From the NCBI GenBank assembly GCA_014730275.1, contig WJIL01000016.1, positions 124,001 to 188,000 of the forward strand: DNA of 64,000 nt, in the 5' to 3' direction. Position 1 is the first letter of the stretch. The number at the start of each line of letters is the position of its first letter. The notes beneath the pieces were generated by a model, which was given only the letters and a program-made list of their open reading frames with translations, had not been told where the DNA came from and ran no database searches. This document shows, piece after piece, positions 937 to 61,445 of the stretch. Origin of the DNA: Candidatus Lokiarchaeota archaeon. GTDB lineage: Archaea > Asgardarchaeota > Thorarchaeia > Thorarchaeales > Thorarchaeaceae. A program made the position numbers and the translations under genes.

Positions 937-1302
937 TTACTCCTCCTTTCCTGAAATTGGCGATTGTCTTGACACAACAACACAGGAAACATTCTTGCTA
1001 AGTGGTCTACATTCGACTACTTTCACCTGGTCTCCTTTCTTGACTTTGATACAAGGTGGCAAGTGCGCATGCTTCTTTGTTCGGCGACGTTCATATCGGG
1101 AGTATTTCTTGACAAGAGATAGGTAGTCCATCTGGAAGGTGATTGCCTTGTGCATCTCCGTACTTGTTACCACTCCTTCCATGATTCTTCCCCTTACGGG
1201 TAAGTGTCCATGAAATGGACAATGCGGATCATCACAAACCTCCTCTGGAGGTTCTACCCCGGGAATACCGATGTTTCTGACTGCATTTTCACCTTTTGCC
1301 AT
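937..1302 (-). CDS. rps17: 30S ribosomal protein S17 (uS17)
   Basis: This primary 16S rRNA-binding protein has the archaeal N-terminal extension that carries DDPHCPFHGHLPVRGR, then the OB-fold with KAITFQMDYLSLVKKYSRYE. I place the start at ATG 1302 (MAKGENAV), 121 residues. The in-frame ATG at 1311 is only 2 nt from the SD and overlaps the rnp1 stop, whereas 1302 has better spacing from AGGAGGAG. Neighbours Rnp1 and L14 match the archaeal spc-like order. Confidence 0.95.
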   Translation of the reverse strand: MAKGENAVRNIGIPGVEPPEEVCDDPHCPFHGHLPVRGRIMEGVVTSTEMHKAITFQMDYLSLVKKYSRYERRRTKKHAHLPPCIKVKKGDQVKVVECRPLSKNVSCVVVSRQSPISGKEE

Positions 1303-1304
1303 GT

Positions 1305-1589
1305 TTACCATCTCCTCCTGAGCCTCTGTTTCATTCGTTCCTCAGGCCGTCCTTCCAGTAGTTTTCCATCGACTCGAACAACTCTCCCATCTGGAAGTGA
1401 GAAATCAAATACTGCATTACCCTTTGGAATCTTAACAGTACCAGAAGCTATTTTCAGTTCCAACATATTCTTGCTTTCTCTAATGACCTGTCCTTTGTTT
1501 GAAATCTGGGTTGGATCCGTTGATTGTGCTACGTGGGCCTTTAGCCCCACCAGCTCGTGTCTAACGATGTTTTCGGGCTGAATTCTCAT
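1305..1589 (-). CDS. rnp1: Ribonuclease P protein component 1 (Rpp29/Pop4 homologue)
   Basis: A 94-residue protein with the Sm-like barrel of archaeal Rpp29, a protein subunit of RNase P that helps the catalytic RNA mature tRNA 5' ends. It opens MRIQPENIVRHELVGLKA, the family signature, then shows the GQVIRESKNMLEL and GNAVFDFSLPDG strands and ends in an Arg-rich tail. The ATG overlaps the L29 stop (ATGA), so translation is coupled. Archaea commonly keep this gene between L29 and S17. Confidence 0.93.
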   Translation of the reverse strand: MRIQPENIVRHELVGLKAHVAQSTDPTQISNKGQVIRESKNMLELKIASGTVKIPKGNAVFDFSLPDGRVVRVDGKLLEGRPEERMKQRLRRRW

Positions 1590-1798
1590 CGGGGTACCCC
1601 CAGTTCTTCTTCTCGTTCGACTGTAAGAATACGCGCAATCGTTTTCTTCACTTGCCGAATCTGATAGGGATTCTCAGTTCCTCCACCTGTCGCGACTTCT
1701 GTACGAAGACTTGAAAGCTGGTCGTACAGCTCCTCTAGCCTCTTTTTACGTTCCTCAGGTGTGAGGTTTCTGATGTCTTGAGCGGTAAGTCTTGCCAT
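1586..1798 (-). CDS. rpl29: 50S ribosomal protein L29 (uL29)
   Basis: A 70-residue helical protein of the exit-tunnel rim that contributes to the docking site of SRP and translocon. It has the LTPEERKKRLEELYDQLSSL helix and the C-terminal KKTIARILTVEREE helix typical of uL29. It overlaps the Rnp1 start by 4 nt and lies 3 nt after S3. Confidence 0.95.
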   Translation of the reverse strand: MARLTAQDIRNLTPEERKKRLEELYDQLSSLRTEVATGGGTENPYQIRQVKKTIARILTVEREEELGVPR

Positions 1799-1801
1799 TC
1801 G

Positions 1802-2728
1802 CTACTCCTCTTCCTTAGTTTCTTCAGTAGATGGATCGAGCTCATCTAACTCCTCGAGCTCTTCTAGGGTACTGTCGGTTTCTGCTACTGTTGGTTCTTC
1901 ATCTTCTTTTTTCTCTTCTTCAGTAGCTTCGGGTTGCTCTTCTTCTGGAGCTTCTTGAACTGGTTCTTCTTCTACCAGCTCTAGCTCGTCAAGCTCTTCA
2001 AGTTCACGTAATTCTTCAAGGTCAGTGATGCCTTCAGGCACCTCTTCAACTGCTTCCGCCTCTTCTTCCTCTTTTTCTTCCTTGTCTTCTTCAGGTTCGG
2101 CAAGAAGACGTGGTTCTTCTCTCTCTCTGTCTTTTGGTTCTTTTACATGAACTCTGCCAGGAAGTTTGGCGTCTGCTTTCATGATTCTAACTTTGATTCC
2201 AATTGATCCTGGTTTCAGAATCGCAGTATCATCAGCTTCGTCAACGAACGCTCTGGCGGGTTCGCCTGTTTTTGTGATAGTTCCTTTTCGGAACTTCTGA
2301 TAGCGACCACGCCTGCTTGACAGCTTGCCTTTAACAATAATCTCGCAGCCTTCGGCTCCAGCCCGCATAATCCTGTTGATGATCCAGTAGACCATTCTTC
2401 TGAATCTAACACCGCGCTCCATTTGTCTTGCAATTCTGGAGGCCATTACTTGGGCGTTGAGCCATGGGTTTTCTATTTCGCTAACCTCAACTTGCGGGTT
2501 GTCAACCATGAACTGTGTTTCGAGTGTATACGTTAATTCTCTAACATTTGATCCTCTTCGACCAATCACAACGCCTGGTCGAGAGGCGTATATGACGATA
2601 TCAGTTCTCATGGGTCCTTCTTTGATTTCAAGACCCCCGTATCCAGCTGTGTTCAGCTCACGGCTTAGAAACTCGTCAATAGTGAGTTTCCTCGCGTTCT
2701 GTTCGATGAAATGTTTGACAGCAGACAT
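1802..2728 (-). CDS. rps3: 30S ribosomal protein S3 (uS3) with a long acidic C-terminal tail
   Basis: The start is ATG 2726-2728 (MSAVKHFIEQNARKL), 1 nt before the L22 stop; upstream in-frame codons lie inside L22 and are not used. Residues 1 to about 205 are ordinary archaeal uS3: KH domain with VVIGRRGSNVREL, then the C-terminal domain with SSRRGRYQKFRKG and VRIMKADAKLPGRVHV at the mRNA entry channel. From about residue 205 to 308 follows a low-complexity tail of mostly Glu, with repeated blocks such as LEELEELDELD. It is 308 aa in total, about 100 more than a compact archaeal S3. The tail is in frame and the gene is otherwise normal. Confidence 0.95.
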   Translation of the reverse strand: MSAVKHFIEQNARKLTIDEFLSRELNTAGYGGLEIKEGPMRTDIVIYASRPGVVIGRRGSNVRELTYTLETQFMVDNPQVEVSEIENPWLNAQVMASRIARQMERGVRFRRMVYWIINRIMRAGAEGCEIIVKGKLSSRRGRYQKFRKGTITKTGEPARAFVDEADDTAILKPGSIGIKVRIMKADAKLPGRVHVKEPKDREREEPRLLAEPEEDKEEKEEEEAEAVEEVPEGITDLEELRELEELDELELVEEEPVQEAPEEEQPEATEEEKKEDEEPTVAETDSTLEELEELDELDPSTEETKEEE

Positions 2729-29098: not shown

Positions 29099-30499
29099 GT
29101 GACCTTGCAAAACCTGATTCCCGTACATGTGGGACTTGTAGGCCACATAGACCATGGCAAAACAGAATTGGCGAAATGTCTTAGTGAAAAAGTATTCACA
29201 GCTGGCCTTGATAAGCATCCCCAGTCAAGAAAGCGCGGAATCACAATCGATTTGGGCTTCAGCATGTTTTCTTCCGACAAATACCTTGTGACCCTTGTTG
29301 ATGCTCCGGGTCATGCTGATTTGATTCGAAGCGTTGTAGCTGGTGCCAGTATCATTGATGCCGCTATTCTGACAGTTGCAGCTGATGAAGGCGTGCAGAT
29401 ACAGACCATCGAACATGCCACTGTTCTCAAGGCGATGGCTATAGACAAATTGCTTGTTGCCATTACGAAAACCGACCTTGTTGAGAACAATCAAGTGAAG
29501 CAGGTTTCAAGAGAAGTTGAAGGAATCGCAAAGCGATTGAAACTGGAGCCAGTTGATTATATCCCTGTCTCTGCGGAAACAGGTACTGGCATCCAGAAGC
29601 TGCGTGAGATACTGGTAGATTCACTTACTTCCCCCAACCGAGAGGATGAAGGCCCCCTTCGCATACCTATAGATCACGCATTTCCCGTTACTGGTCATGG
29701 AACTGTATTGACTGGCACTATTCTTAGGGGGTCTCTATCTACTGGTGATGCGGTACAATTGGTGCCAGGAGGAAGTCGAGCAACAGTACGTACGATTCAG
29801 ACCTTCGGACAGGAACGAGAGTCAGCAACCGCAGGTGATCGCGTGGGTGTGAATGCTCCAGCATTTGATCATAAACGCATTGAGCGTGGAAACTATCTCT
29901 GCACTCCTGATAGCATGAAGACTGCAGAATCCCTTCTAATAGGAGTCGAACTCAATCCGGGGTATGAGGGCCGTATTACTGCACGGATGGTTGTGAATGC
30001 AACGATTGGAATGTCGAGCGTTACTGCAGAAATCGTACCTTTCAGAGAGATGGATGGACGACGAATTACCGTCGAAGAACCTCAGGAGCGAGTATTCGAA
30101 GCTGCGCTGTTGCTGAAGGAGAAAGTACCTGCAGAAATAGGAAATCGTGTCCTACTCATGCGAACCGATATGCCTGTAACAAGTATGCGCATCGTTGGTT
30201 GTGGAATCATTGGTGACCTCATGAATGTAGTAACACTACACCACGTGCGGACGAGAAATGGAGAAATCAGTAGAATTCGAGATGAGGATGTACTGATAGA
30301 GGGCCTTGCCCGAAGCAAGCAAAAAGCACAATCACTGAAGGGACAAACCGTCCGTAGTGAAAATGGAGCTAAAGGAAGAATCTTGGATGCGTTTGGAACC
30401 CGTGGTGTCGTAATAGTGACATTTGAAGATGAAGTGGAACTCAAAGAGGAAGTCGTATTGGAGGACTACATAGAGGAGGAATACCGTTTTGGCAGATGA
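29099..30499 (+). CDS. selB: Selenocysteine-specific elongation factor SelB (archaeal/EFSec type)
   Basis: 466 residues. The GTPase domain has GHIDHGKTELAK, the effector/switch region KRGITIDLGFSMF, DAPGHADLIRSV and TKTDLV. Domains II and III follow, then a fourth domain with VRSENGAKGRILDAFGTRGVVIVTFEDEVELKEEVVLEDYI. The SelB-type insertion and lack of the bacterial C-terminal winged helices match archaeal SelB and eukaryotic EFSec. It carries Sec-tRNA to the ribosome. It overlaps the SepSecS start by 11 nt and is followed by tRNA-Sec. The start is GTG 29099 or TTG 29105; the latter has better spacing from GGGAG. Confidence 0.95.
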   Translation: MTLQNLIPVHVGLVGHIDHGKTELAKCLSEKVFTAGLDKHPQSRKRGITIDLGFSMFSSDKYLVTLVDAPGHADLIRSVVAGASIIDAAILTVAADEGVQIQTIEHATVLKAMAIDKLLVAITKTDLVENNQVKQVSREVEGIAKRLKLEPVDYIPVSAETGTGIQKLREILVDSLTSPNREDEGPLRIPIDHAFPVTGHGTVLTGTILRGSLSTGDAVQLVPGGSRATVRTIQTFGQERESATAGDRVGVNAPAFDHKRIERGNYLCTPDSMKTAESLLIGVELNPGYEGRITARMVVNATIGMSSVTAEIVPFREMDGRRITVEEPQERVFEAALLLKEKVPAEIGNRVLLMRTDMPVTSMRIVGCGIIGDLMNVVTLHHVRTRNGEISRIRDEDVLIEGLARSKQKAQSLKGQTVRSENGAKGRILDAFGTRGVVIVTFEDEVELKEEVVLEDYIEEEYRFGR

Positions 30500-31820
30500 G
30501 CCTATTGACCGATTTGAAGCACTTGTACCTCATAACATGAAAGAACGGGGGCGAATTACGCTTGAGGCATTGCTTTCACCAGTTCGTGATGTGATAAATC
30601 GAAGACAATTCCCGAAAGAACCGCTCTCAGAAGAACAGGTCGATTTACTGCTACGACTACTTTCATCAATGGATACAGACAAAGATCCAGATGCAGCAAG
30701 AGTGGGTGAACGAGAAGGAAGGACCGCTAGTCCAATGATACAGAAGCTGGCGGCAGGATTTAATCATGGCATTGGGCGCAGTGGCCATGTGACAGCTCCT
30801 CAGCCAAAGGCTCCGGGAGCATCTATAATGCAGAGAATAGCCAATTCTGTTGCCCTTGACGCCATTCGTGAGTTAGGCTTGCCCAATGTCCGAGCTGGTT
30901 TGGTTACTCCCCTTTCTACCGGCATGACACTAGCACTGGTATTCGGGGCATTTCGGAGGGAAATTGGCACACGAAACGTCATTTATCCACGTATTGATCA
31001 TACCTCACCTAAGCGGGCAATTCAACTTGCCGGACTAAACGAGAAGACTATACCCACTGTTCTGGATGGAGATGCAGTTGTCCCCGATATGAACGAATTT
31101 GAGAAGTGTTTGCAGGATGCAAAAAACGCAGCCGTTTTAGCAACAACCACCTTCTTCCCCCCACGTGAATCTGATCCTGTCAAAGCAATCGCCAAGCTAT
31201 GTGAAGAAAAACAGATACCTCTGGTGATCAACAACGCCTATGGTGTTCAATCGAAGCGTGTTATGAGCGAGATTCGTTCTGCAATTGATGCTGGCCGAGT
31301 TGATGCAGTTGTGCAGAGTAGTGACAAGAACTTCTTGGTGCCTGTTGGTGGTTCAATCCTAGTATCTCCTCGTGATGACATCATTGAACAGGCTGCTGAA
31401 ACGTATGCTGGGAGAGCAACGGCAGCACCAGTCGTTCAAACATTAGCCGCTTTGCTAGTTCTCGGACTGGAGGAATACAGCAAGTTACAGGAGGCACAGG
31501 TAAATAACCTCAATTTTCTGGAGGATGAGATGGCATCTATTGCCGATTCTGTTGATGAGCGCTTATTGTCGATTTGGAACCCAGTGGCATGTGCGATGAC
31601 TATTGACGGATTTGACGCAAAAAAGATTGGAGGGCGGCTCTATAACAGAAGAGTTACCGGTCCCCGAGCTGTACCTAAGAACGGGAAGGGAGCTTCAATC
31701 GATGGTTACCCACACAGCTACTTGGTGATGAATGCCGCCATCGGAGCAAGTCGTACAGACGTTAAACAAGCTACTACTAGACTATATAAGGAATTAACCG
31801 AATGGTTAAAGAAGGGTTGA
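30489..31820 (+). CDS. spcS: O-phosphoseryl-tRNA(Sec):selenocysteinyl-tRNA synthase (SepSecS)
   Basis: 443 residues, full length. This PLP enzyme converts Sep-tRNA(Sec) to Sec-tRNA(Sec) with selenophosphate. Visible family features are GFNHGIGRSGHVTAPQPKAPGAS, NVRAGLVTPLSTGMTLALVF, VLATTTFFPPRESDP, VINNAYGVQS and the PLP-lysine region VQSSDKNFLVPVGGSIL. The start is TTG 30489 behind GAGGAGG, inside the end of selB, so the two are translationally coupled. Confidence 0.96.
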   Translation: MADEPIDRFEALVPHNMKERGRITLEALLSPVRDVINRRQFPKEPLSEEQVDLLLRLLSSMDTDKDPDAARVGEREGRTASPMIQKLAAGFNHGIGRSGHVTAPQPKAPGASIMQRIANSVALDAIRELGLPNVRAGLVTPLSTGMTLALVFGAFRREIGTRNVIYPRIDHTSPKRAIQLAGLNEKTIPTVLDGDAVVPDMNEFEKCLQDAKNAAVLATTTFFPPRESDPVKAIAKLCEEKQIPLVINNAYGVQSKRVMSEIRSAIDAGRVDAVVQSSDKNFLVPVGGSILVSPRDDIIEQAAETYAGRATAAPVVQTLAALLVLGLEEYSKLQEAQVNNLNFLEDEMASIADSVDERLLSIWNPVACAMTIDGFDAKKIGGRLYNRRVTGPRAVPKNGKGASIDGYPHSYLVMNAAIGASRTDVKQATTRLYKELTEWLKKG

Positions 31821-31836: not shown

Positions 31837-32487
31837 ATGGAAGACTTGGAAAATCAGCCTAAGGTCAAGCGCACCATAACCTATGATCGTCCACAATCCT
31901 CAACCATATTCAGAATTTCTTGGTTCGCAATTGGATTGAAACCCGGGGCGATGCTCAACGAGTATAGTGAAGGGGAGGGCAAGCTGTTCAAGGGTAAGGC
32001 TATGTTTACAGTCCCTCTAGATGATACTAAGACGCAGGTCCGCTTGTGGGTGGAAGAAGCTCAGCGCTCTATCGAATTGACAGCTTGGGGTCCCGATAAG
32101 GAGATGCTGAATGACTACCTAGATGAAGTTGTTTCACGTTTGGAGACCTACATCGGCAAGTACTTGGAGCTATCTGATGAAGATAGACAGAAAGTCCGCC
32201 GGGCATTAGTTGCAAAAACATGTTGGGATCGCGTAGTCTATGAAATCCTGAACAAGGCGCCACTTAGTTCCATCTATGTTCAAGTTGCTCATGGCAGAGA
32301 AATGATGATCAAAGCAACCGAGGGCGAGGATATTCATCCACTAGCTTTGACGACGAGCGGATGGTTGACGAAAATCGAAGAACTCCCTCAAGATGAACCT
32401 CCACCATCTGATGTTGCGGAGAACCTTGCCAAGAAAACAGTAGAATGGAAGAAAGAAACACACGGCGTCATAGGAAACTATCTCTAG
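31837..32487 (+). CDS. Unknown protein in the selenocysteine operon
   Basis: 216 residues, 16 nt after sepSecS with a perfect SD (AAGGAGG), and 95 nt before tRNA-Sec on the same strand. The N-terminal half is a beta-rich region (TITYDRPQSSTIFRISWFAIGLKPGA, KGKAMFTVPLDDTKTQVRLWVEEAQRSIELTAWG). The rest is helical (LNDYLDEVVSRLETYIGKYLEL), then a short beta part with SSIYVQVAHGREMMIKATEGEDIHPLALTTSGW and a charged tail. It is not L7Ae, SBP2, SelD or SerRS. Position suggests a Sec-related role, such as SECIS binding or SelB assistance, but this is inference. Confidence 0.75.
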   Translation: MEDLENQPKVKRTITYDRPQSSTIFRISWFAIGLKPGAMLNEYSEGEGKLFKGKAMFTVPLDDTKTQVRLWVEEAQRSIELTAWGPDKEMLNDYLDEVVSRLETYIGKYLELSDEDRQKVRRALVAKTCWDRVVYEILNKAPLSSIYVQVAHGREMMIKATEGEDIHPLALTTSGWLTKIEELPQDEPPPSDVAENLAKKTVEWKKETHGVIGNYL

Positions 32488-32582: not shown

Positions 32583-32674
32583 GGCCCCCTCTAGGGACGG
32601 TGGACTGTCCCCGTGGGCTTCAAACCCATGAGTTCGCTAAGAACTAAGAGTTCGATTCTCTGGGGGGGCCGCCA
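32583..32674 (+). tRNA. tRNA-Sec (anticodon UCA)
   Basis: The cloverleaf can be drawn by hand. A 9-bp acceptor stem pairs GGCCCCCTC (32583-32591) with GGGGGGGCC (32662-32670). The D arm is GGGAC/GTCCC. A 6-bp anticodon stem CGTGGG/CCCATG encloses loop CTTCAAA, giving anticodon TCA at 32620-32622. The long variable arm is AGTTC-gctaa-GAACT. The T arm has only 4 bp, AGAG-TTCGATT-CTCT. Discriminator G at 32671 is followed by an encoded CCA (32672-32674). The 9+4 architecture, long variable arm and UCA anticodon are diagnostic of archaeal/eukaryotic tRNA-Sec. Confidence 0.96.
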
Positions 32675-34319: not shown

Positions 34320-35099
34320 TCAGCGTTCTTTGGTCCCTACTCCTCTTTCTCTCGAGCTAAGCTTCTCCAACTCCGTTCTTAGTCGTGCCTTGGTAGCTCC
34401 AACGGTCCATTCATCGAGCAAGGCCTGCTGCAGTATTTCTCTCCTAGTCAAATGAACACGTTCATCCGGCCCAAGGTCTGGATTGTCTTCCAGAAAATCT
34501 GATACTACCCCCCTGGTTGCCACATCTAGTTGGTTGTTCTCCGTCTTCGCAACATCCTGTGGTTGTTCCTCAGCTTCTGCCTTTCGGAGGGCTTCAAGAA
34601 TTTCAATAGCCTCCTGAGTAGCGCTTTTCCTACTCAAATCAACTGTTGCCAGTGGCTCATCCCAAGCATATTTCTTTCCAGGAATGTCTAATCGATCATC
34701 GATTCTGTGAATGACGTGCTCTGGGACAATCATTCGGCGTTTTTTGTTCCATTTGAGAGCTACTTCAAGGGGTGTAGTAACGAACACGGTTCCATATACA
34801 CAGGTGTGGTTCAGCGCAATTTCGCGGATTTCGTGTCTCATACTTGCATAGTAGTTCGTATCGTCATGGACCACCGATAATCCGCTATCAGCTAAATCCC
34901 TTGTTCTCTCAAGCGCTTTTCTTCGTACTTCGTTCTCTTTCTTCGGCGAAAAATCTGCGTAGAATGCTTCGTCTCGCCAGTGATCTGTACTGACAAGTTC
35001 TACCTTTGATGGGTACAAATGATGGTGAATGATTTGCCGAGCTAAGGTTGTTTTTCCTGAGGCGGGTATACCGCAAAGAGCGACAACGAATTGTTTCAT
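34320..35099 (-). CDS. pstK: L-seryl-tRNA(Sec) kinase (PSTK)
   Basis: 259 residues. The kinase domain has P-loop CGIPASGKTTLA, LVSTDHWRDEAF, and the PSTK signature VHDDTNYYASMRHEIREIA. Then come RRMIVPEHVIHRIDDRLDIPGKKYAWDEPLATVDL and a helical C-terminal domain beginning ATRGVVSDFLEDNPDL that contacts the tRNA-Sec D arm. It phosphorylates Ser-tRNA(Sec) for SepSecS. The match to the Methanocaldococcus enzyme runs through the C-terminal domain, which separates it from Kti12-like relatives. It is encoded opposite to selB-sepSecS-tRNA-Sec, 1.6 kb from the tRNA. Confidence 0.92.
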   Translation of the reverse strand: MKQFVVALCGIPASGKTTLARQIIHHHLYPSKVELVSTDHWRDEAFYADFSPKKENEVRRKALERTRDLADSGLSVVHDDTNYYASMRHEIREIALNHTCVYGTVFVTTPLEVALKWNKKRRMIVPEHVIHRIDDRLDIPGKKYAWDEPLATVDLSRKSATQEAIEILEALRKAEAEEQPQDVAKTENNQLDVATRGVVSDFLEDNPDLGPDERVHLTRREILQQALLDEWTVGATKARLRTELEKLSSRERGVGTKER

Positions 35100-45923: not shown

Positions 45924-46925
45924 TTAGGCTCCCCGGTTGAGAATATCTTCCTCTTGTGTCAGGAGTATATCGAGTGCTATGTTGTCCGCATGATCTCCAA
46001 TCCGTTCAAGATTGCGTAACGTCTCAACATAGACAGTATCTGCCTCTGGTTGACATATTCCCTGAGATATTCGCTCGTTATGGGCTTGGCGAAGCTTCTT
46101 CTCTAATATGTCCACTTCATCTTCCATTTCGATGGTGTTTCTTGCAACATCCGTATTCTTTGTTTTGAGCGCTTTAATGCCCTGCTGATACGTATCGGCA
46201 ACCAAATCAAACATTCCGCCAATATCTTCACTCGCTTGCTCTGAGAACGCAATTCCGTTACTCATCCGCTCTAGGGCAAATTCACCAATATTCTCGCAAA
46301 GATCTCCTACTCTTTCAATATCTGTGAGTAACGCCAGTAGCTTCATTCTCCATATAGCATCTTCTTCGTTGAGTTCCTCCTCAGGTATCTTGTCCAGAAA
46401 AGTCTCTGTTGATCTGCACCTCTCATCTACGTCATCCTCCATCAACAGCACCTGTTTCGCATCATCTTGGTTTCTTTCAAGAAGTGCATTTTTTCCGAGT
46501 ACTATCATTTCTGCGGTGGCTTCAGCAATCCTGTGAATCTCTCTTTCAGCTTCCCGTAATGCCGCCTGGGGCATATTCAGCATTTCATCATCGAAGAAGT
46601 GTTGACCAATGATTTCGCCCTCCTTCTCAGGAATAAGGCGCTCACAAAGCTTGACGAGGGGACCTACAAGCGGTACGAACATTAGACTAACAATAACATT
46701 GAATATTGTGTGAGCGTTAGCGATTTGTCGTGGCAAGGAGGTTGCAGTTGTTGTGACTAAATCGGTGAAGGGGCCTAGGAATGGGAAGAACACCGCCACT
46801 CCGATGATATTAATCAGTGATTGAGCTACGGCAGTCCTTTTTGCAGGGGTTGTAGCACCAAATCCTGCAAAGAGTTCAAGGAAGCAAGTTCCGATATTTG
46901 CGCCCATCACCATAGCTATGCTCAT
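45924..46925 (-). CDS. Na/Pi cotransporter, C-terminal part (second half plus PhoU domain) of a frameshifted gene
   Basis: This frame is open back to about 47041, where it encodes the second QSSS repeat (TTQSSSATTSLVIALGGAGLIGL) just before the nominal ATG 46925. It then continues MGANIGTCFLELFAGFGATTPAKRTAVAQSLIN, several membrane spans and a PhoU-like helical domain from about residue 110 (EREIHRIAEATAEMI...LLTDIERVGDLCENIGEFAL...NLERIGDHADNIALDI). The matching first half lies at 47030-47569 in another frame. Together they equal a normal 550-residue PNaS-type cotransporter with PhoU tail. A single-base indel near 47030-47041, real or sequencing, separates them. Confidence 0.85.
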   Translation of the reverse strand: MSIAMVMGANIGTCFLELFAGFGATTPAKRTAVAQSLINIIGVAVFFPFLGPFTDLVTTTATSLPRQIANAHTIFNVIVSLMFVPLVGPLVKLCERLIPEKEGEIIGQHFFDDEMLNMPQAALREAEREIHRIAEATAEMIVLGKNALLERNQDDAKQVLLMEDDVDERCRSTETFLDKIPEEELNEEDAIWRMKLLALLTDIERVGDLCENIGEFALERMSNGIAFSEQASEDIGGMFDLVADTYQQGIKALKTKNTDVARNTIEMEDEVDILEKKLRQAHNERISQGICQPEADTVYVETLRNLERIGDHADNIALDILLTQEEDILNRGA

Positions 46926-47029
46926 ATCCAGCCCTATCAGTCCTGCCCCACCAAGGGCGATAACGAGACTCGTCGTTGCTGAGCTACTCTGTGTTGTACC
47001 AGCTATGAGTGTACCTATTAGAATTCCAA

Positions 47030-47569
47030 TCAGCGGTATTGCGCTATATACCTATTGATGGCCTCCACAAAGAACTGATTTTCTGGATCTTCAATGATGG
47101 CTGATGCTCCCCCCTTCATGAATTCCATAGCAAGGAAAATGAGGCCCAAACTGAATATCACTTTGAATACATGCTTTAACCTATCGCTCCGTGAGAATGA
47201 CATCCCAAAGAAACCAATGGCAAGTAATGGCCAGTAGAGGAAGCCGATGTCGAACGAAACGATTTGCGCTGTCAAGGTAGTTCCGATTTCAGATCCAAGC
47301 ATAACATTGACTGCTTGACGGAACGACATCATTCCTGCGTTGACAAAGCCAATCAGCGTAAGTGCTGTTATACTGGAGCTTTGGGTCATAAACGTTGTAG
47401 CTGCTCCAGTCCCCATTCCTCTGATTGGGTCGTTACTCACTTTCTCTAAGGTACGGACAACTCGCTTGCCAGATAGTTTACCCAGCGTTTCCCTGAGCAT
47501 AGTAATGGCAAACATGAACGTTCCGAGTCCGCCAATTATGATGAGCAAATTTTCAATGAGCGTTGCCAT
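47030..47569 (-). CDS. Na/Pi cotransporter, N-terminal part of a frameshifted gene
   Basis: 179 residues. IGGLGTFMFAITMLRETLGKLSG is the first span, and the first QSSS repeat is GAATTFMTQSSSITALTLIGFVNAGMM with GSEIGTTLTAQIVSF. The frame ends at a stop directly after NRYIAQYR, while the rest of the transporter continues one base out of register. A healthy gene would run 45924-47569 without interruption. No slippery heptamer is evident, so a mutation or assembly error is likelier than programmed frameshifting. Confidence 0.85.
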   Translation of the reverse strand: MATLIENLLIIIGGLGTFMFAITMLRETLGKLSGKRVVRTLEKVSNDPIRGMGTGAATTFMTQSSSITALTLIGFVNAGMMSFRQAVNVMLGSEIGTTLTAQIVSFDIGFLYWPLLAIGFFGMSFSRSDRLKHVFKVIFSLGLIFLAMEFMKGGASAIIEDPENQFFVEAINRYIAQYR

Positions 47570-47792
47570 TCTACTTGTTTCACAAAACCCTCACTATATG
47601 AAGATTAGCTCAGTTCACGGCCCAGATCAGGAATCAAGCTTGTACTGTTAGCGATATATCATTGGAGAATGAAACATTACGAAAATGTAGTAAATTCATT
47701 TCCATCGAAGAAAAACTAACCTCATGATGACTTACGCTAATCACACTCCGTATTCGGGTTGCTAGGAATGCTCAGAGGTGTGGTATTCTAAG

Positions 47793-47880
47793 GAACTTGA
47801 CCAGCGAGCCCTTGCGGGGCTCGTCAGGTTGGGCCCACAGGTTTACGGCCCGACCGTCATCCGCCGCTGGTCTGCAGTTC
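47793..47880 (-). promoter_or_regulatory. Eukaryote-like SECIS element over the vhuU stop codon
   Basis: On the minus strand the RNA forms a long hairpin. The outer stems are GAACT/AGTTC and GACCAGCG/CGCTGGTC. The core has AUGA (47857-47860, overlapping the vhuU stop) opposite UGA (47824-47826). Between them a helix GGTCGGGCC / GGCCCAACC (one mismatch) closes an apical loop GTAAACCTGTG with AAA at 47842-47844. AUGA, 12 nt, AA in the loop, and UGA on the 3' side is the eukaryotic SECIS layout (tandem G.A quartet), not the compact archaeal GAA-A form known from methanogens. A smaller hairpin (CGAGCCC/GGGCTCG) could compete with the outer stem. Confidence 0.78.
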
Positions 47881-48015
47881 CTTTCTTGCTATCTCGCGAC
47901 CCTCATCGTCGACAACGACTAAATGAGCGCCGCATGATAGTCAGCAGTCATAGCACCGCACAACCATCTCAAGGAGGTTGAGCAGGCCTTCATCGATTTG
48001 TTCTGTTTGTGTCAT
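47857..48015 (-). CDS. vhuU: Selenoprotein VhuU: Sec-containing C-terminal piece of the [NiFe] hydrogenase large subunit
   Basis: A 52-codon gene read on the minus strand from ATG 48015 to TGA 47857-47859, with one in-frame UGA at 47941-47943 (codon 25). With UGA read as Sec (U) the core is LLNLLEMVVRCYDCULSCGAH, and U-x-x-C-x-x-H matches the C-terminal Ni ligand motif of hydrogenase large subunits, Sec taking the first Cys position. The preceding gene (mvhA) ends 12 nt upstream without this motif. GGTGAT is 3 nt before the ATG. About 20 residues (LVVVDDEGREIARKELQTSGG) follow the His and may be removed by the maturation protease. An adjacent SECIS-like hairpin and the Sec machinery at 29-35 kb support UGA recoding. 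Confidence 0.9.
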
Positions 48016-48027
48016 TGTATCACCGTT

Positions 48028-49341
48028 TTACTTGATCATAGGATCAGGTAGGTTCAAGTTTTCGTGCTCTTTGTTCTCGAACACTTGTTTGGCTGCTTTC
48101 ATCAGGCTTTTCTCAATGCCGCCTATATTGTTATTGGTCGCGACCACGAGGTTTGTTTTCGTTACTATCCCTTTTTCGTCTGTCCAGTAATGATGAAGCA
48201 GCGTTCCTCGTGGGGCTTCCACAACACCCACGCCATTGCCTTTCTTGGGTTCAACATCACTGAGTTTCACATCTGTGCTGACAATCTCGGGATCTGTAAG
48301 CAGTTTCTCCATTTCTTCAACTGCTTGTATCATCTCAATGACCCTTGCCCAATGATAAGCGAATGTAGCATGGGTAGGTCTTCCGAGTTTCTCCCTAAGC
48401 TCCTCAAGCGCTTCTTGCGCCAGCGGAGTAGGCATCTTATCAGCTACATTGATTCTAGCGAGGCTGTTTGCCCGCCAGACCCCCTCTGGATACCCAGCTG
48501 GTTTGTAGTAGATATGAGTGGCATAGGAGTGATCAGGGACGTGCTCGCCATAGTACTTTCTGTATCTCTTAGCAGGAAAGTTTTCAACGATTTCTCCTTC
48601 AGGATTCATAACACGCAGGCGACCATCATAGATTTCATAGTTTCCGCGGTAATGCATACCAAGATAGTATGTTGGCACAACCGCAAAATTCTCGATAACG
48701 TCCCAGTAATCATCAACAACCTTCTTTGCGAGCTCCACAGTATCAGTTGTCCATTCCTTCAAGTCTTCCATTCTTTCGAGGAAGTTGTCTCTGTGTTCCT
48801 CCGAAAACGGGTTCAGCATACCGCCTGGAGTTGCGGTAACAGGATGGATTGATTTTCCACCTATTGCGGAGACTAAATCCTGGCCGTATTCCATGACTTG
48901 GAGAGCAAGCTTGCCTACATCTGGGAGCGACTTGATTATGTTGACAACATTCCGTTGTGACGGGTCCGCAAATGGCCCTGCGAGAAAATCAGGGGCAGCT
49001 AGCGCGAAGAAATGAAGTCCATGAGAGGATAGTTGTTTGGCGTTCAAGAACAGCCTGCGAACTTTCTCTGCTGCGGATGGCGGATTCACGTCCCATGCGG
49101 CTTCCACCGCTTTCACTGATGCGAGAAGGTGTGGGACCGGGCAGATACCACAAATTCGCTCTGCTATTCTTGGTACCTCTTCAGCCAAACGCCCTTCCAG
49201 GAACTTCTCGAAGAAACGGGTGCTGGAAATGTTGAACTGAACGTCCTTTACCTTTCCGCCTTTGCCCAGCTTGATTGTGAGTTCTCCATGTCCCTCAAGC
49301 CGGGTAACAGGTTCAATCCGAATTGTCCTCTCGTCTGTCAT
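48028..49341 (-). CDS. mvhA: [NiFe] hydrogenase large subunit MvhA/VhuA, lacking the C-terminal Ni motif
   Basis: 437 residues. The N-terminal nickel motif is RICGICPVPHLLASVKAVE (about 62-80; R-x-C-G-x-C-x-x-x-H), followed by the usual helical core. The protein ends LNLPDPMIK and a TAA stop, without the D-P-C-x-x-C-x-x-H motif that normally closes the subunit. The missing motif is supplied by vhuU 12 nt downstream, as in the split VhuA/VhuU of some methanococci. Start ATG overlaps the mvhG stop (TAATG). It is the catalytic subunit of the H2-oxidising Mvh (group 3c) complex that feeds HdrA. Confidence 0.93.
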   Translation of the reverse strand: MTDERTIRIEPVTRLEGHGELTIKLGKGGKVKDVQFNISSTRFFEKFLEGRLAEEVPRIAERICGICPVPHLLASVKAVEAAWDVNPPSAAEKVRRLFLNAKQLSSHGLHFFALAAPDFLAGPFADPSQRNVVNIIKSLPDVGKLALQVMEYGQDLVSAIGGKSIHPVTATPGGMLNPFSEEHRDNFLERMEDLKEWTTDTVELAKKVVDDYWDVIENFAVVPTYYLGMHYRGNYEIYDGRLRVMNPEGEIVENFPAKRYRKYYGEHVPDHSYATHIYYKPAGYPEGVWRANSLARINVADKMPTPLAQEALEELREKLGRPTHATFAYHWARVIEMIQAVEEMEKLLTDPEIVSTDVKLSDVEPKKGNGVGVVEAPRGTLLHHYWTDEKGIVTKTNLVVATNNNIGGIEKSLMKAAKQVFENKEHENLNLPDPMIK

Positions 49342-50252
49342 TAGCTCTCCTCCTTGTTCTTTCGAGATGTTATCTTCGAGAGATATGAACTAGCATAATC
49401 TGTGAAGTAGAACGAGCCAATCGTATCTGGGAAGTGTTCTCGAAGTTCTTCAGCATCCATATCCACCACTGAACCGAGCGCAGAGATTATTTTTGCTCCG
49501 TGATCAATCACACCTGGTGGAGGGCCGAAACACCCTTTGCATGGTGTATTAACCTTCGGACATTGGGCTCCACACAAGCTGATAGTAGCAAAACCAAGGC
49601 AAAGGTAGCCCTGATCCAGAAGGCATCGGTCTGGGTCTATTTTTCCTTCATGAGTGCGGTGGAACTCCGTTATCGTCTTATGTTCACGCTCTTTGGGACA
49701 CTCATCACAGACTGTCTTGTTTGGAAGTTTGTACTCCTTCCCCTGCAGCAAGGCTGTAAGTCCTTCAAGGGTATTCTCAGGTGTGGGAGGACAACCAGGA
49801 ATCCTTAGCTCGAATGGCACGATTTCGGTGTTGGCCTTTACGTGGTCTGTGAAACCTGGCATGTTTTCCTCAGGAATCCGTCCATTCGTAACAGTATCGG
49901 CTGTCTTGAATTTGCGTTCCATGAGCTCATCTATGCTCCACTGGTTTCCAAGACCTTGAACGCCTCCATAACATGAGCAAGACCCCCATGCAATCAGGGT
50001 TTGACTCTTTTTCCTCATCACTTTGAGGAGATGTTCATCTTCCTTTGTTCTACAACTTCCTTCAACAAAGCCGAACTCGATAGATTGGTCTGACAGATTC
50101 TCAAGGTCTTTCAACTTGTAATCTACAACCGCTGGCCAGTAGACGATTTCCAGTTCAGGAATCACGTCCAACAGACCCAGATGCAAATCAACTAACGATT
50201 GGTCACAGCCCCAGCAAGAACTCAGCTGCGTGAATGCAACGCGCTTTGCCAT
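49341..50252 (-). CDS. mvhG: [NiFe] hydrogenase small subunit MvhG
   Basis: 303 residues. Fe-S ligands include SSCWGCDQSL (proximal cluster), AWGSCSCYGGVQG, IPGCPPTPE, CDECPKERE and CLGFATISLCGAQCP...CKGCFGPPPG, giving the three clusters of the group 3c small subunit. It passes electrons from MvhA to MvhD. It lies between mvhD (2-nt gap) and mvhA (1-nt overlap), so the three are one operon. Confidence 0.95.
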   Translation of the reverse strand: MAKRVAFTQLSSCWGCDQSLVDLHLGLLDVIPELEIVYWPAVVDYKLKDLENLSDQSIEFGFVEGSCRTKEDEHLLKVMRKKSQTLIAWGSCSCYGGVQGLGNQWSIDELMERKFKTADTVTNGRIPEENMPGFTDHVKANTEIVPFELRIPGCPPTPENTLEGLTALLQGKEYKLPNKTVCDECPKEREHKTITEFHRTHEGKIDPDRCLLDQGYLCLGFATISLCGAQCPKVNTPCKGCFGPPPGVIDHGAKIISALGSVVDMDAEELREHFPDTIGSFYFTDYASSYLSKITSRKNKEES

Positions 50253-50254
50253 TC

Positions 50255-50707
50255 TCAGTCACTCTTTCCGGCTGGATTTGGTCCCAGCTTTTTGATTCGC
50301 TTGACCATCTGCTTGACTCCTTCAGCAAAAACATCACCTTCAGCGGCACTTGCCCATTGCAGATGAACCCGTTCCGGGTTTATTCCAGCTTGGTCTAGAG
50401 CATCCTGAAGGAGAGTATATCTGGCTTTCATTTTGAGATTGCCACTCGTATAATGACAATCACCTGGATGACATCCTGATATGAGCACTCCATCAGCACC
50501 CTGACCAAGAGCTTTCAGGATAAAACTCGGATCTACACGCCCGGTACAATTCACGCGGATAATACGCACATTTGGGGGCATCTGCATTCTGCTGGTTCCT
50601 GCAAGATCAGCCCCTGCGTAGGAACACCAGTTACAGCAGAAGGCCAAAATTTTGGGCTCGAAGCTCTCTTTATCGCTCCTGTCAGCCTTCACTTCAGTTT
50701 TTGCCAT
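50255..50707 (-). CDS. mvhD: Hydrogenase delta subunit MvhD (2Fe-2S)
   Basis: 150 residues from ATG 50707, with GGTGA 5 nt upstream; longer upstream frames are not needed. The signature is [55 protein letters not shown], conserved Cys binding the 2Fe-2S centre. MvhD links the hydrogenase to HdrA in flavin-based bifurcation. In some archaea this family has Sec in the CNWC region; here the codons are ordinary Cys. It is the promoter-proximal gene of mvhDGA-vhuU, with TATA-like TGTTAATAATCC about 70 nt upstream. Confidence 0.94.
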
Positions 50708-50865
50708 TGAGTTCACCTTTGCAGATGTCAAGTCACGGGGACCTCCGGCCAGTTCTTGGTGTCTTTGTCTGAGGATTATTAACATTCCTGATTGCGGCCG
50801 ACCAGTTTCACGTCTTCATTCCTTTTTCAGAGGAGACAAGAAGTCTGAGAACTGATGAAGATACA

Positions 50866-51280: not shown

Positions 51281-53164
51281 TTACCAAAGCCCGGTTCTTT
51301 TCATCTCTTCTTCGAGAGACAAACGCCTTAGAGTTTCCTTGGTGGGCAAGCCACTTTCCAAATTCCATCCTCGTTCCTCGTAGTACTCTTCCAGCATATC
51401 ATCAAGTTCTACGGTCTGTCCCTTTGACGGTCCAGTCGGCGCGGCTTGCTGTGTAAGTCTCTTAGGCAGACTATCGTCCTTTCTCGTTATGCCGCGCATG
51501 GCATTGAACAGTCTATTGATATTGACTATTCGCTCTCCTATTTCTTTCAGTTGTTTCTCTGATAGTTCTATACCGTTGTGAATCTGAATGGCCTTGGATA
51601 CTGCAGGGTAATAGAACTCTGGGGGGATCTGTGTTCCGTATTTGCAGAGCCCGACACTTTCCACGACTACCATGTAATCCTCGCACTCTTTGACCATGAT
51701 GCCCTTGTACTTGGGATTGAGCCTATCAGTCATTTCAGGTAGATATTCCTCGCCAAATCGTTCTCTGATTTCATCATCGAACCCGGCTTCGTCGAGGACC
51801 GGAAATGCATAGAGATGGTCCGCACCCCTTGCCGCAGTGGCAGCCGCAAGACCCATGGATTTCTGGGCACGGGGTTCCTGACCGGCTATTTCCTGTTTCT
51901 TCACTGCCATGACGAATTTTTCGGTTCCTCTCCCAATCTCCTCTGCAGCTTTCGCGCTCCCTTCTGCTAAGAGATCTCCAAACCCTTCTCTGTGAGCTAT
52001 CATCTTTGTAAGCTCGATTATGGCTTCAGCATTCCCCCAGGAGAGGTCAATTCCTTCAGTATCCTCTTCTGTTAGAAGTCCTTCGTCCCATGCTTCCATC
52101 GCCCAGGAGATTGTTCCACCGAGAGAGATTGTATCCATGCCATATTTGTTTGCAAGGTGATGACCGAACAGAACTGACTCCACATTGTCGTTTCCGCATC
52201 TGGAACCTAGAGAAGACTGTGTCTCGAACTCGGGTGCTCCTCCGGTATACTTGTATGGTCCTTCACGAACCGTAGTCACTCGACCACACCGCTGCAAACA
52301 ACACCAATCTGCCCTCGCTTTTACGAGGTGCTCGTCGTAGATTTTCTGGCCGCTTATCTTCTCATATTCATCAAATACCCCTTGTCGGAAGTTGTAGGAT
52401 GGCAGTCTCCCGATTTCCTGCATCATTTCCACAAGGTTCGTTGTTCCATATTTTGCACGTTCAGGAGTAAAGGGGTTATCGAGCATCCTCTTGTGGAACC
52501 GATCCATTTCCTTGAGATAGTTGTCTGGGTCTGCAACATCGATTTTTCCGGTTCCTCGCACACTGATTGCCTTGACTTTCTTAGAGCCCATGACTGCTCC
52601 AAGACCTGATCTCGCTGATGCGCGGTCTCTGTCGTTCATGATGGCGGCGAATCTAACGAGGTTTTCTCCTGCCGGTCCAATTGAAAGTATTCGACATTTC
52701 TTTCCGTGTCGCTTGTGAAGCAATTCGTCGGTTTCGAAAACATCTTTCCCCCAGATATTTTTTGCATCGACAAGCGCAACATCATCGTCTCGGATGTTCA
52801 GGTATACTGGTTCGGGCGAGATTCCTTTGAAGATGATAGCATCGTATCCAGCCATTTTCAGCTCTGGGCCCCAGAACCCAGCTGCATGGCTTTCTCCCCA
52901 TATTCCTGTTAGGGGGGACAAAGCCGCAACCAGATGTCTAGATGCCTGAGGAAACATCGAACCTGTTAGGAGACCAGTTGCTATTCCCAAAACATTCTCT
53001 GAAGAGAGAGGGTCTGCATCTGCTGGGATGTGATCGAAGAGAACCTTGGATAGGAATCCAGCTCCGAGAAGGAATTTCCTTACCATCGATTCTTCAATCG
53101 GCCGAGCATCAATCTCTTGCTCTGTGAGGTCGATCCAAAGTATTTCTCCACCTACTCCCTTCAT
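51281..53164 (-). CDS. aor: Tungsten-containing aldehyde:ferredoxin oxidoreductase (AOR family), copy 1
   Basis: 627 residues. AOR signatures are GILWIDLTEQE-like opening strand, PLTGIWGESHAAGFWGPELKMAGYDAIIFKG, GPAGENLVRFAAIMNDRDRASARSGLGAVMGSKKVKAI, and QEPRAQKSMGLAAATAARGADHLYAFP. The Fe-S motif, normally C-x2-C-x3-C, reads DWCCLQRC, so the first Cys position is Asp; the fourth ligand is in VGLCKYG. It oxidises aldehydes to acids or reduces acids, with ferredoxin. Start ATG overlaps the upstream ferredoxin stop (ATGA). A paralogue lies at 59167. Confidence 0.93.
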   Translation of the reverse strand: MKGVGGEILWIDLTEQEIDARPIEESMVRKFLLGAGFLSKVLFDHIPADADPLSSENVLGIATGLLTGSMFPQASRHLVAALSPLTGIWGESHAAGFWGPELKMAGYDAIIFKGISPEPVYLNIRDDDVALVDAKNIWGKDVFETDELLHKRHGKKCRILSIGPAGENLVRFAAIMNDRDRASARSGLGAVMGSKKVKAISVRGTGKIDVADPDNYLKEMDRFHKRMLDNPFTPERAKYGTTNLVEMMQEIGRLPSYNFRQGVFDEYEKISGQKIYDEHLVKARADWCCLQRCGRVTTVREGPYKYTGGAPEFETQSSLGSRCGNDNVESVLFGHHLANKYGMDTISLGGTISWAMEAWDEGLLTEEDTEGIDLSWGNAEAIIELTKMIAHREGFGDLLAEGSAKAAEEIGRGTEKFVMAVKKQEIAGQEPRAQKSMGLAAATAARGADHLYAFPVLDEAGFDDEIRERFGEEYLPEMTDRLNPKYKGIMVKECEDYMVVVESVGLCKYGTQIPPEFYYPAVSKAIQIHNGIELSEKQLKEIGERIVNINRLFNAMRGITRKDDSLPKRLTQQAAPTGPSKGQTVELDDMLEEYYEERGWNLESGLPTKETLRRLSLEEEMKRTGLW

Positions 53165-53652
53165 GGTGTTTCCTCCTTTCCATATAGAATGTCTGCATGT
53201 TCATCATGGAGAGATAGTATTTCTCCATCGGGGTCCGTTTCTTGAAGCTTCTCACGAGTTGTAATTTGAAGGGCATCAACTGGGCACCGACTAACACATT
53301 CGCCACATTGAATGCATTTGATTGCCTTCCCTGTATCTGGGTTAATCTTTATCGCAGCGTACGGGCAGGCTTCCACACAATCTCCAGTACCTGTGCACTT
53401 TGCTTCACTGATTATGACGGTCCCCTTCTTAGTCCGTCGAATAGCGCCCTCTGGACAAGCGTCAATACAAGGTGCATCCTCACAGTTCCTACAGAAGAGT
53501 GGGAAATCTAGAGCAGGTTCTATTCGTAATACTCTTGCACGAGATCTTGCGGGGCTTATCGTCTTGAAGAAGCGCATGCTACATACGTTAACACATATCA
53601 TGCAACCAGTACAAACCCGAGGATCCCCTATCACAAATTCTAGCTCAACCAA
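53161..53652 (-). CDS. Polyferredoxin partner of AOR copy 1 (four 4Fe-4S motifs)
   Basis: 163 residues. Cys motifs are CTGCMICVNVC, CRNCEDAPCIDACP, CTGTGDCVEACP (one Cys of the cluster shifted) and CIQCGECVSRCP, the HycB/DMSO-reductase-B pattern. It resembles AorA, the electron-carrier subunit of AorAB-type aldehyde oxidoreductases. The start is TTG 53652 with GGAGG 8 nt upstream; it overlaps the amidohydrolase stop by 8 nt and the AOR start by 4 nt. The C-terminal 30 residues are charged and unassigned. Confidence 0.9.
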   Translation of the reverse strand: MVELEFVIGDPRVCTGCMICVNVCSMRFFKTISPARSRARVLRIEPALDFPLFCRNCEDAPCIDACPEGAIRRTKKGTVIISEAKCTGTGDCVEACPYAAIKINPDTGKAIKCIQCGECVSRCPVDALQITTREKLQETDPDGEILSLHDEHADILYGKEETP

Positions 53653-59166: not shown

Positions 59167-61101
59167 CTAGTAGCTTTGCATCATTCCTCGCCTGGCAAGG
59201 TCATGATATACATACTCGAGTCCAAGTTCGCGGAGTTTGTCCTTTTTCGGTAGTCCTGTTTCTTTGTCACATCCTCTCAGCTCATAGTATTCATCGAGCA
59301 TGTAATCCAAATCAGGAAGACCACCTTTCGCAGGTCCTGTGGGCATGGGCTCCTTGAGCAATCTTCTTGGGAGTGTTTCTTGTTCGCGAGTTATTCCGAG
59401 CCTGTGGTTGTATGCCCTTCTGAGATGACATATCCGTTCGGCCGCTGTTCTAACAAATTCAGGGTCTCCCCACTGGCTCATTCCAGTTAAGGGGGGAATC
59501 ACATTGGTGAAGGTGTCGAAGTAGTATATTGGCGGCCACATTGTACCGTATTTGCAAATGACTGCTGAGTCAACCAGTGCGTACAGGTCTTCGATATCTT
59601 TGATAACCTCACCTTTGTGCACGGGAGATGTTATTTTGCTGATTTCTTCGAATTTCTCCTTTCCAAATCTGGCATTGATAACTTCAGGATACCCCAGTTC
59701 TTCCAAGCTTGACAGACTTCTCAGATGATCCGCACCCCTCACATTGGTCGCGTACGTGAGTCCAACCGACTGATGTGCACGCGGATCTTGTCCCGATGCT
59801 TCTAACCCCTTGACATGAACTGCATATTTCCACGCATCATTACCTATTGCCTTTGCGGCTTGTCGAGTGCCTTTTGAAAGAAGTTCACCAAAACCTTCCC
59901 GACTAGCAATCATCTCCACAAGTTGAATCATCGCATCAACGTTGCCCCATGAAAGATCTAATCCACCTGTGTCTTCTTCGTCAATGATGCCTTTTTCCCA
60001 GAGCTCCATTGCGAAACCAATCGTCTTGCCCGCAGAAATCGTATCCATGCCCAGTAGGTCACATCGCGTTCCCAAGTGGAAGATGGATTCTATGTCGTTA
60101 TTCAAACAGTTGCTGCCAAAAGCCATGAGTGTTTCATACTCTGGCCCACCTGTTGGTCCCCGAGAGAACCTCCCCTCTTTAACACGAAAGACATACTTGC
60201 AACCTATTCCACAGCCATAACAGGCTTCTTGATTGATTCGATACTTATTTGCGATTACTTCTGGCCCAATATCATCAGCATCTTCATAGAACCCAGTCCA
60301 GTGATTCTTGGTAGGCAACCTGCCTATTTCATTAATCATCGCAACTAGGTCGGTGGTACCATACTTACGCAAGGACGCGATTGAGCTCTCCCACAGCTCG
60401 TCGTTGACCTTCGCCAGTTCTTCCTCATTGGCTTCCAGATATGCATCCATATCATGTGCTTCTAGACCTAGAGCACCACTGGCCGCGATTGCCTTAACAT
60501 TCTTCGAGCCCATCACAGTTCCGAGTCCTGTACGTCCGGCAGCTCTGTAATAATCGACTATGATACATCCATAGAGGACTCCATTCTCACCAGCTGGGCC
60601 GATGGTGGCAGTCTCAATCGACGGATCCTTGTGTTGTTCACGAATCATATCCGTTGTAGTGTCTGTTTCCCGCCCCCACATGTCTGACGCATCTTTGAGC
60701 TCCGCGTCGCCATCATTGAGATACAGGTATACAGGGTTTGGTGAACGACCATTGAGTATGATGAAATCGAATCCAGCGTATTTCATCTCAGGACCGAAGA
60801 AGCCTCCAGAATGGCTTTCAGCCCATATCCCTGTCTGTGGACTCATTCCTGAGAACATGAACCGCCCTGAAGGTGAGAACATGCTTCCTGTTAGGGGTCC
60901 GGTACCTACAATCAGGATATTATCAGGTGAAAGCGGATGTGTCTCTGGACCTGTTCTATCCCATAGTATCTTTGATGAAATACCAGTACCGCCCAGATAC
61001 AAAAGGGCCCACTCTTCTTCCATGTCCTTGATGTGGACCTTACCTTTGTCAAGATCCACGTCGAGGTATTTACCCGCATATCCTTTGTATCTAAATCCCA
61101 T
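59167..61101 (-). CDS. aor: Tungsten-containing aldehyde:ferredoxin oxidoreductase (AOR family), copy 2
   Basis: 644 residues. The Fe-S motif is canonical, EACYGCGIGCKY, and the fourth Cys is in VDSAVICKYGT. Other signatures are GIWAESHSGGFFGPEMKYAGFDFIILNG, GPAGENGVLYGCIIVDYYRAAGRTGLGTVMGSKNVKAI and DPRAHQSVGLTYATNVRGADHL. It shares the overall pattern with copy 1 but the two have clearly diverged. ATG is 2 nt after the ferredoxin stop with GGGAGGAGG upstream, so the two are one operon. Confidence 0.93.
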   Translation of the reverse strand: MGFRYKGYAGKYLDVDLDKGKVHIKDMEEEWALLYLGGTGISSKILWDRTGPETHPLSPDNILIVGTGPLTGSMFSPSGRFMFSGMSPQTGIWAESHSGGFFGPEMKYAGFDFIILNGRSPNPVYLYLNDGDAELKDASDMWGRETDTTTDMIREQHKDPSIETATIGPAGENGVLYGCIIVDYYRAAGRTGLGTVMGSKNVKAIAASGALGLEAHDMDAYLEANEEELAKVNDELWESSIASLRKYGTTDLVAMINEIGRLPTKNHWTGFYEDADDIGPEVIANKYRINQEACYGCGIGCKYVFRVKEGRFSRGPTGGPEYETLMAFGSNCLNNDIESIFHLGTRCDLLGMDTISAGKTIGFAMELWEKGIIDEEDTGGLDLSWGNVDAMIQLVEMIASREGFGELLSKGTRQAAKAIGNDAWKYAVHVKGLEASGQDPRAHQSVGLTYATNVRGADHLRSLSSLEELGYPEVINARFGKEKFEEISKITSPVHKGEVIKDIEDLYALVDSAVICKYGTMWPPIYYFDTFTNVIPPLTGMSQWGDPEFVRTAAERICHLRRAYNHRLGITREQETLPRRLLKEPMPTGPAKGGLPDLDYMLDEYYELRGCDKETGLPKKDKLRELGLEYVYHDLARRGMMQSY

Positions 61102-61103
61102 CT

Positions 61104-61445
61104 TCAGGCCTCCTCCCGTACCAAACCATATTTCTTGGCTAGGTCGCCTACTCCTTGTGCTCGCTCTCTTAGCCCATCACCGTCTAATGTGACCACGCTG
61201 ATGGCATCATACTCACATGCTTCTACGCATGCAGGGTTTCCTCCACATAAATCACACTTTATCGCTTTGAGGGTAATGGGGTCTATCGCAATACCTCCGT
61301 AAATGCACGCGTTGACACAATTCCCACATCCAATACAGCTGTTTGGATTCACCGTAAGAATTTCTTCTTCGTTACGATGGATTGCTCCAGTTGGACATGC
61401 TTCTTGACACAGTGGATTCTCGCATTGGAGACAAACCACTGGCAT
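61104..61445 (-). CDS. Polyferredoxin partner of AOR copy 2, in-frame C-terminal part
   Basis: From ATG 61445 this gives 113 residues with CLQCENPLCQEACP, CIGCGNCVNACIYGGIAI and CDLCGGNPACVEACEYDAI. The reading frame stays open upstream of the ATG for about 60 codons and encodes RCTGCRNCELACSVEHTQTF, the missing first cluster of the HycB/AorA fold. The real gene therefore starts further upstream (see 61446-61639). As it stands the fragment lacks the first motif. It is the electron-transfer subunit for the AOR beside it. Confidence 0.9.
   Translation of the reverse strand: MPVVCLQCENPLCQEACPTGAIHRNEEEILTVNPNSCIGCGNCVNACIYGGIAIDPITLKAIKCDLCGGNPACVEACEYDAISVVTLDGDGLRERAQGVGDLAKKYGLVREEA

Follow-up and report, generated by a model that had tools for sequence, protein, structure and literature searches.

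MvhA as encoded at this locus resembles, on its own, a hydrogenase without half its active site, and the question is whether a small frame directly behind its gene, interrupted by one UGA codon, supplies the other half. The window, the whole stretch of 64,000 nucleotides that was analysed, comes from a Candidatus Lokiarchaeota archaeon placed in Thorarchaeia by GTDB (contig WJIL01000016.1). The MvhA/VhuA large-subunit gene (48028..49341, minus strand) encodes an N-terminal RICGICP motif with C64 and C67, ends in ...LNLPDPMIK and has no C-terminal CxxC. With a probability of about 95%, the frame behind it is a vhuU-type selenoprotein gene in which UGA codon 25 specifies selenocysteine (Sec), the peptide completes the MvhA active site, and a eukaryote-like SECIS element directs decoding.

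A small gene behind a split large subunit

The gene comprises 52 codons and a TGA stop (47857..48015, minus strand) and begins 12 nt past the MvhA stop codon (48030-48028). Its single in-frame UGA, codon 25, lies at 47941..47943 (minus strand) with CUA next, and a Shine-Dalgarno-like GGTGAT, recognized by consensus match, stands 3 nt 5' of the ATG (48019..48024, minus strand). Translated from 48015 to 47857 with TGA as U, the product is MTQTEQIDEGLLNLLEMVVRCYDCULSCGAHLVVVDDEGREIARKELQTSGG. A sequence-only reading had proposed a VhuU-type split C-terminus here, citing this frame, its spacing, the UGA, the GGTGAT, the core DCULSCGAH, the missing motif of the upstream subunit, and SelB, SepSecS, PSTK and tRNA-Sec within the window. 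Re-translation reproduces the frame and its core, the other observations stand as well, and the proposal is supported by the VhuU family, the small peptide of structure 9sfi, a covarying SECIS and the Sec machinery. That reading left the strand unstated; a plus-strand reading of the same interval is broken by stops and was rejected. It also called the gene hidden. This is true for standard gene finders, which would miss the gene because of the UGA inside its frame, and standard annotation drops what would be a catalytically essential subunit, but publications on Asgard archaea (PMC11227280, PMC11291895) already include the protein family itself.

NCBIfam VhuU (NF041786) is the best family for the peptide (E 9.7e-15, 54.1 bits, with C put for U); the score is below the curated cut-off of 70, and the peptide is therefore VhuU-like by homology and position rather than an NCBI 'equivalog'. 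Similarly, the upstream gene matches NCBIfam VhuA (E 2e-147) with 491 bits, below the curated cut-off of 800. The top PDB match of MvhA is chain g of 9sfi, a 418-residue split large subunit (E 1.9e-130), and the 27-residue chain M of the same structure aligns with VhuU residues 7-32. The alignment that had been suggested as a check places the UGA opposite an X in 9sfi and opposite the Cys ligand in full-length subunits. The locus has a small separate gene directly 3' of a large subunit without the last CxxC, and its U-x-x-C-x-x-H motif, with the in-frame UGA at the first ligand (ULSCGAH), is kept in relatives.

The insertion, ligation, cleavage and activity that we infer for VhuU-MvhA are as follows. 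Of four active-site Cys ligands, MvhA would give C64 and C67, and the separate VhuU peptide the other two. In bacterial [NiFeSe] hydrogenases such as HysA, Sec is the terminal Ni ligand and Cys the bridging ligand; by analogy, the terminal role would fall to Sec25 and the bridging role to Cys28. HysA differs in being unsplit, in having its SECIS inside the coding region, and in having Pro before Sec. At UGA25, tRNA-Sec, SelB and SepSecS would insert Sec, directed by the SECIS, which overlaps the vhuU stop. Once the enzyme is assembled, a HycI-type protease, of which the genome has one, probably cuts the tail off after H31/L32; the matching end of 9sfi chain M suggests cleavage at this point. 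Processing of Methanococcus voltae VhuU is treated in the literature (Sorgenfrei 1993, as cited in PMC2933860).

The genes needed for Sec synthesis and insertion are present. SelB (archaeal EFSec; 29099..30499, plus strand), SepSecS (30489..31820, plus strand), tRNA-Sec with anticodon TCA (32583..32674, plus strand) and a PSTK-like kinase (34320..35099, minus strand; TIGR03574, below the curated cut-off) all lie in the window, and a SelD domain in Cys form is found on contig C15 of this genome, cut by the contig end. There the N-terminal SelD part (HGMGCACK) is an in-frame fusion with a cysteine-desulfurase-like domain. Between SepSecS and tRNA-Sec sits Sel_Asgard, a putative selenocysteine system protein (31837..32487, plus strand; NCBIfam NF045535, E 4.3e-68) whose annotation names no function; PMC11227280 refers to a comparable protein restricted to Asgard archaea.

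Conservation and comparison with known systems

The arrangement is widespread in relatives. Among 59 genomes searched there are 44 strong vhuU matches (E < 1e-9), with exactly one TGA in 42, a TGA plus a TAA in one, and no stop in another. The stop-free homologue, just 3' of MvhA in a genome designated G012 (contig C68), reads DCCLSCSAF, a Cys version. It appears to be a natural Sec-to-Cys reversal in which Phe replaces the final His and the AUGA at the stop is gone; as a single Cys homologue it is a weak control. A scan of named genomes identifies 72 split-MvhA loci in Asgard archaea, under labels that include Thorarchaeota, Lokiarchaeota, Helarchaeota, Jordarchaeia, Sifarchaeum and Borrarchaeum, and a Sec VhuU adjoins MvhA in 59 of them (60 under a relaxed check). 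The nearest relatives with a name carry the label Candidatus Thorarchaeota, which points to a thorarchaeal host. Codons 3' of the UGA stay conserved to the stop across Asgard phyla. The search for the same arrangement in Asgard genomes, also proposed earlier, finds it in dozens of loci, with no motif loss in homologues, and the retention of frame, Sec codon and motif places the frame beyond chance. A redundant full-length MvhA had been named as a possible refutation. Cys paralogues with DPCxxCxxH do exist in the genome, but they do not look redundant, since the one that enters the MvhA comparison reaches no more than 41% identity.

Sec VhuU in Asgard archaea has been published. Huang et al. 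2024 (PMC11227280) describe FrhA/MvhA/VhuU as a widespread Asgard selenoprotein family, and PMC11291895 names a Sec VhuU of ~50 aa in Freyarchaeia/Atabeyarchaeia. As far as these texts extend, the gene shares with Asgard VhuU the split Sec C-terminus, a similar size, a eukaryote-like SECIS, the AUGA_GA core and the GUAAA loop, and no difference in kind was found. The methanococcal VhuA/VhuU pair (M. voltae; 9sfi) likewise has a large subunit that stops before the last CxxC and a small Sec peptide that supplies it. However, methanococcal VhuU has Pro before Sec (DPU) where the gene here has Cys (DCU), and PMC11227280 gives the canonical methanococcal SECIS a GAA_A bulge without the complete eukaryote-like structure. 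Full-length MvhA (PDB 5odc, 9sw2, 7t2r) belongs to the same large-subunit family and has the same C-terminal element, but as one chain with DPCxxCxxH and Cys in place of Sec. Measured against the open texts, the SECIS junction, the Cys before Sec, the CUA context and the apparent sharing of one peptide between two enzymes, all described below, look new.

A SECIS element that includes the stop codon

Fold and covariation in homologues predict a SECIS element at 47790..47883 (minus strand). Its outer helix pairs 47883-47876 with 47797-47790, its basal helix pairs 47872-47866 with 47805-47799, and a GC hairpin 3' of the core pairs 47822-47817 with 47811-47806, all on the minus strand. The core AUGA (47857..47860, minus strand) contributes its UGA as the vhuU stop codon. 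The element sits in a three-way junction with a core hairpin, and the 5' arms of the basal and outer helices lie inside the coding sequence. The window's own sequence folds at -47.9 kcal/mol (z -3.46). Sequence order ATGA ... GTAAA ... GA, as in the Asgard type I SECIS, is found in the window and in homologues; PMC11227280 gives thorarchaeal frhA SECIS elements an AUGA_GA core, an upper stem and a G[U/G]AAA loop, which starts GUAAA in most thorarchaeal frhA genes. Neither the GC hairpin nor the basal helix and junction appears in the main text of PMC11227280 as far as it could be searched for hairpin and junction.

Comparisons of homologues support the helices. Across 33 homologues the three helices around the stop have 93.2% of cells paired, versus 83.0% after shuffling, and 12 of 16 SECIS pairs show compensatory changes, a signal that is lost when the partners are slid; this slid control weighs most, as shuffles leave relatedness in place. 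When 3' arms are swapped between sequences, the basal helix reaches 18.3 against 13.4 (maximum 14.9) for all sequences and 19.2 against 15.3 for the Loki sequences alone; the mixed 'other' group alone gives no significant difference. This test uses no hairpin finder, since such a search settles on a rival hairpin in many of the Thor sequences. The Thor outer helix, of the GGAAGGAG/CUCCUUCC-like type, has at least 6 bp in 30 of 31 genes and is absent from the Loki genes in the same comparison. For Sec decoding in relatives of eukaryotes, a covarying three-way junction that begins within vhuU and takes in its stop codon would offer a testable point.

An alternative hairpin competes with the SECIS fold in many Thor genes. 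In a series of loci (L090-L107), a hairpin such as GGGTGCG-CTGGT-CGCACCT, ~50-85 nt past the vhuU stop, rivals the basal helix, with a pyrimidine-rich stretch behind it; the hairpin might act as a switch or as a terminator. A scan of the window sequence finds no terminator 3' of vhuU.

A covariance model of the vhuU SECIS finds one site in the genome. The next match (E 1.1) was rejected as a second copy, as it lies inside an open frame without a Sec-type UGA. In this genome, the copies of SelD, HdrA and MvhD that were found, and the peroxiredoxins, have no Sec-type in-frame TGA, and a UGA in an HdrA frame on contig C16 proved to be the terminal stop. Judged by these four families, to which DsbA-like and AhpF-like proteins do not belong, and by a vhuU-specific SECIS model, VhuU may be the genome's only member of the widespread Asgard selenoprotein families.

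The UGA codon, its context and its decoding

CUA directly follows the UGA in 28 of 31 Thor genes and 13 of 14 Loki genes. It makes up 12% (Thor) and 7% (Loki) of the Leu codons in neighbouring MvhA genes, and none of the invariant Leu columns of MvhA exceeds 27% CUA. The binomial value for this excess ignores ancestry; the codon counts themselves argue that the UGA-CUA context is probably selected, a second testable point of Sec decoding in relatives of eukaryotes. The constraint on vhuU RNA may be broader than the CUA codon, given that codons are conserved elsewhere in the gene too and that the Thor RNA around the UGA is more stable than synonymous shuffles (mean z -2.0, versus -0.26 for MvhA segments). 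No clear consensus structure was found around the Thor UGA. CUA after the UGA is not mentioned in the searchable main texts of PMC11227280 and PMC11291895.

All Asgard Sec versions seen but one, a DNU in Helarchaeota, have Cys directly before Sec; full-length Cys subunits in the genome have DPC at this place, and solved enzymes DPC or DPX. Among 72 distinct sequences the Cys next to Sec is encoded by TGC in 56 and by TGT in 16, and the use of both codons points to selection on the protein. One may speculate that the Cys-Sec pair forms a selenenylsulfide and shields the site. The searchable main texts on Asgard VhuU (PMC11227280, PMC11291895) do not mention this Cys.

Two explanations do without Sec. 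A near-cognate or suppressor tRNA could read the UGA, with Trp, Cys or Arg as residue 25; in eukaryotes UGA-CUA is indeed known as a leaky stop (PMC4207609 and others), and these genes conserve the context. This is very improbable nevertheless, given that tRNA-Sec, SelB and SepSecS are present, that a SECIS with the published core lies 3' of the UGA, and that alignments place the UGA at the X of 9sfi and where full-length subunits have their Cys ligand. That the UGA is a real stop in a decaying remnant of the MvhA C-terminus has a probability near zero: some Thorarchaeia do have a split MvhA without an adjacent VhuU, so vhuU can be lost, but the conserved codons after the UGA, the lone TGA in 42 of 44 strong matches and the covarying SECIS helices are at odds with decay. 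Codon 25 therefore almost certainly encodes selenocysteine, as far as sequence comparison can tell.

Split MvhA copies without VhuU

A second MvhDGA cluster lies on contig C102 of this genome (MvhA at 982-2289, minus strand), followed by HdrA-type genes. Its MvhA ends at the same point as the MvhA of the window and no VhuU follows it, although the sequence is intact for ~970 nt downstream. The VhuU in the window is the sole credible one in this genome, which is 99.5% complete; a second candidate on contig C130 (E 0.7) was rejected as a chance frame. A genome of the same genus (G001) likewise has a second split MvhA without VhuU, and one VhuU. Five more (G005, G013, G016, G017 and G019) have such an orphan MvhA and one VhuU that adjoins the other paralogue. 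Two others, G009 (97% complete) and G035, have an orphan MvhA and SepSecS, and no VhuU was found in either. On a quick tree, VhuU presence changes state 5-6 times, at least two of them forced by well-supported branches; MAG incompleteness can give false absences, and one VhuU reading DNULSC was left uncounted.

The simplest reading of the orphans is that a single VhuU, with its Cys-Sec pair, completes both MvhA active sites in trans, in this genome and in several other Thorarchaeia. Sharing is suggested by the C102 MvhA, which has no VhuU of its own, keeps the N-terminal ligands and is under purifying selection, and its odds are tentatively put a little short of even. Alternatively, the orphan paralogues may have lost Ni chemistry and serve only in electron transfer or assembly, with nothing shared. 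The empty positions beside the orphans and the two genomes in which VhuU was not found fit such a loss. It sits less well with the orphans' intact RICGICP and nearly all their invariant residues, with a dN/dS of 0.017 between the C102 MvhA and its G001 counterpart, and with the VhuU beside a second MvhA in all other genomes with a confirmed orphan; loss of Ni binding is accordingly possible, with the odds leaning against it. If VhuU is shared in trans, the split of the large subunit would allow several enzymes to draw on one selenoprotein. The main texts of PMC11227280 and PMC11291895, to the extent that these are searchable, say nothing of orphan MvhA copies.

Neighbouring genes

The cluster continues upstream of MvhA with the small subunit MvhG/VhuG (49341..50252, minus strand) and a Cys form of MvhD/VhuD (50255..50785, minus strand). 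On the other side of vhuU, either a frameshift or an assembly error divides a Na/Pi-cotransporter-like gene (45924-47569, minus strand) into two frames, with the break around 46925-47060. Two large genes at 51281-53652 and 59167-61445 (minus strand) look by eye like aldehyde ferredoxin oxidoreductases, each with a ferredoxin-like gene upstream. The ferredoxin upstream of 61445 was considered as a selenoprotein and rejected; it is an open frame with Cys and no Sec.
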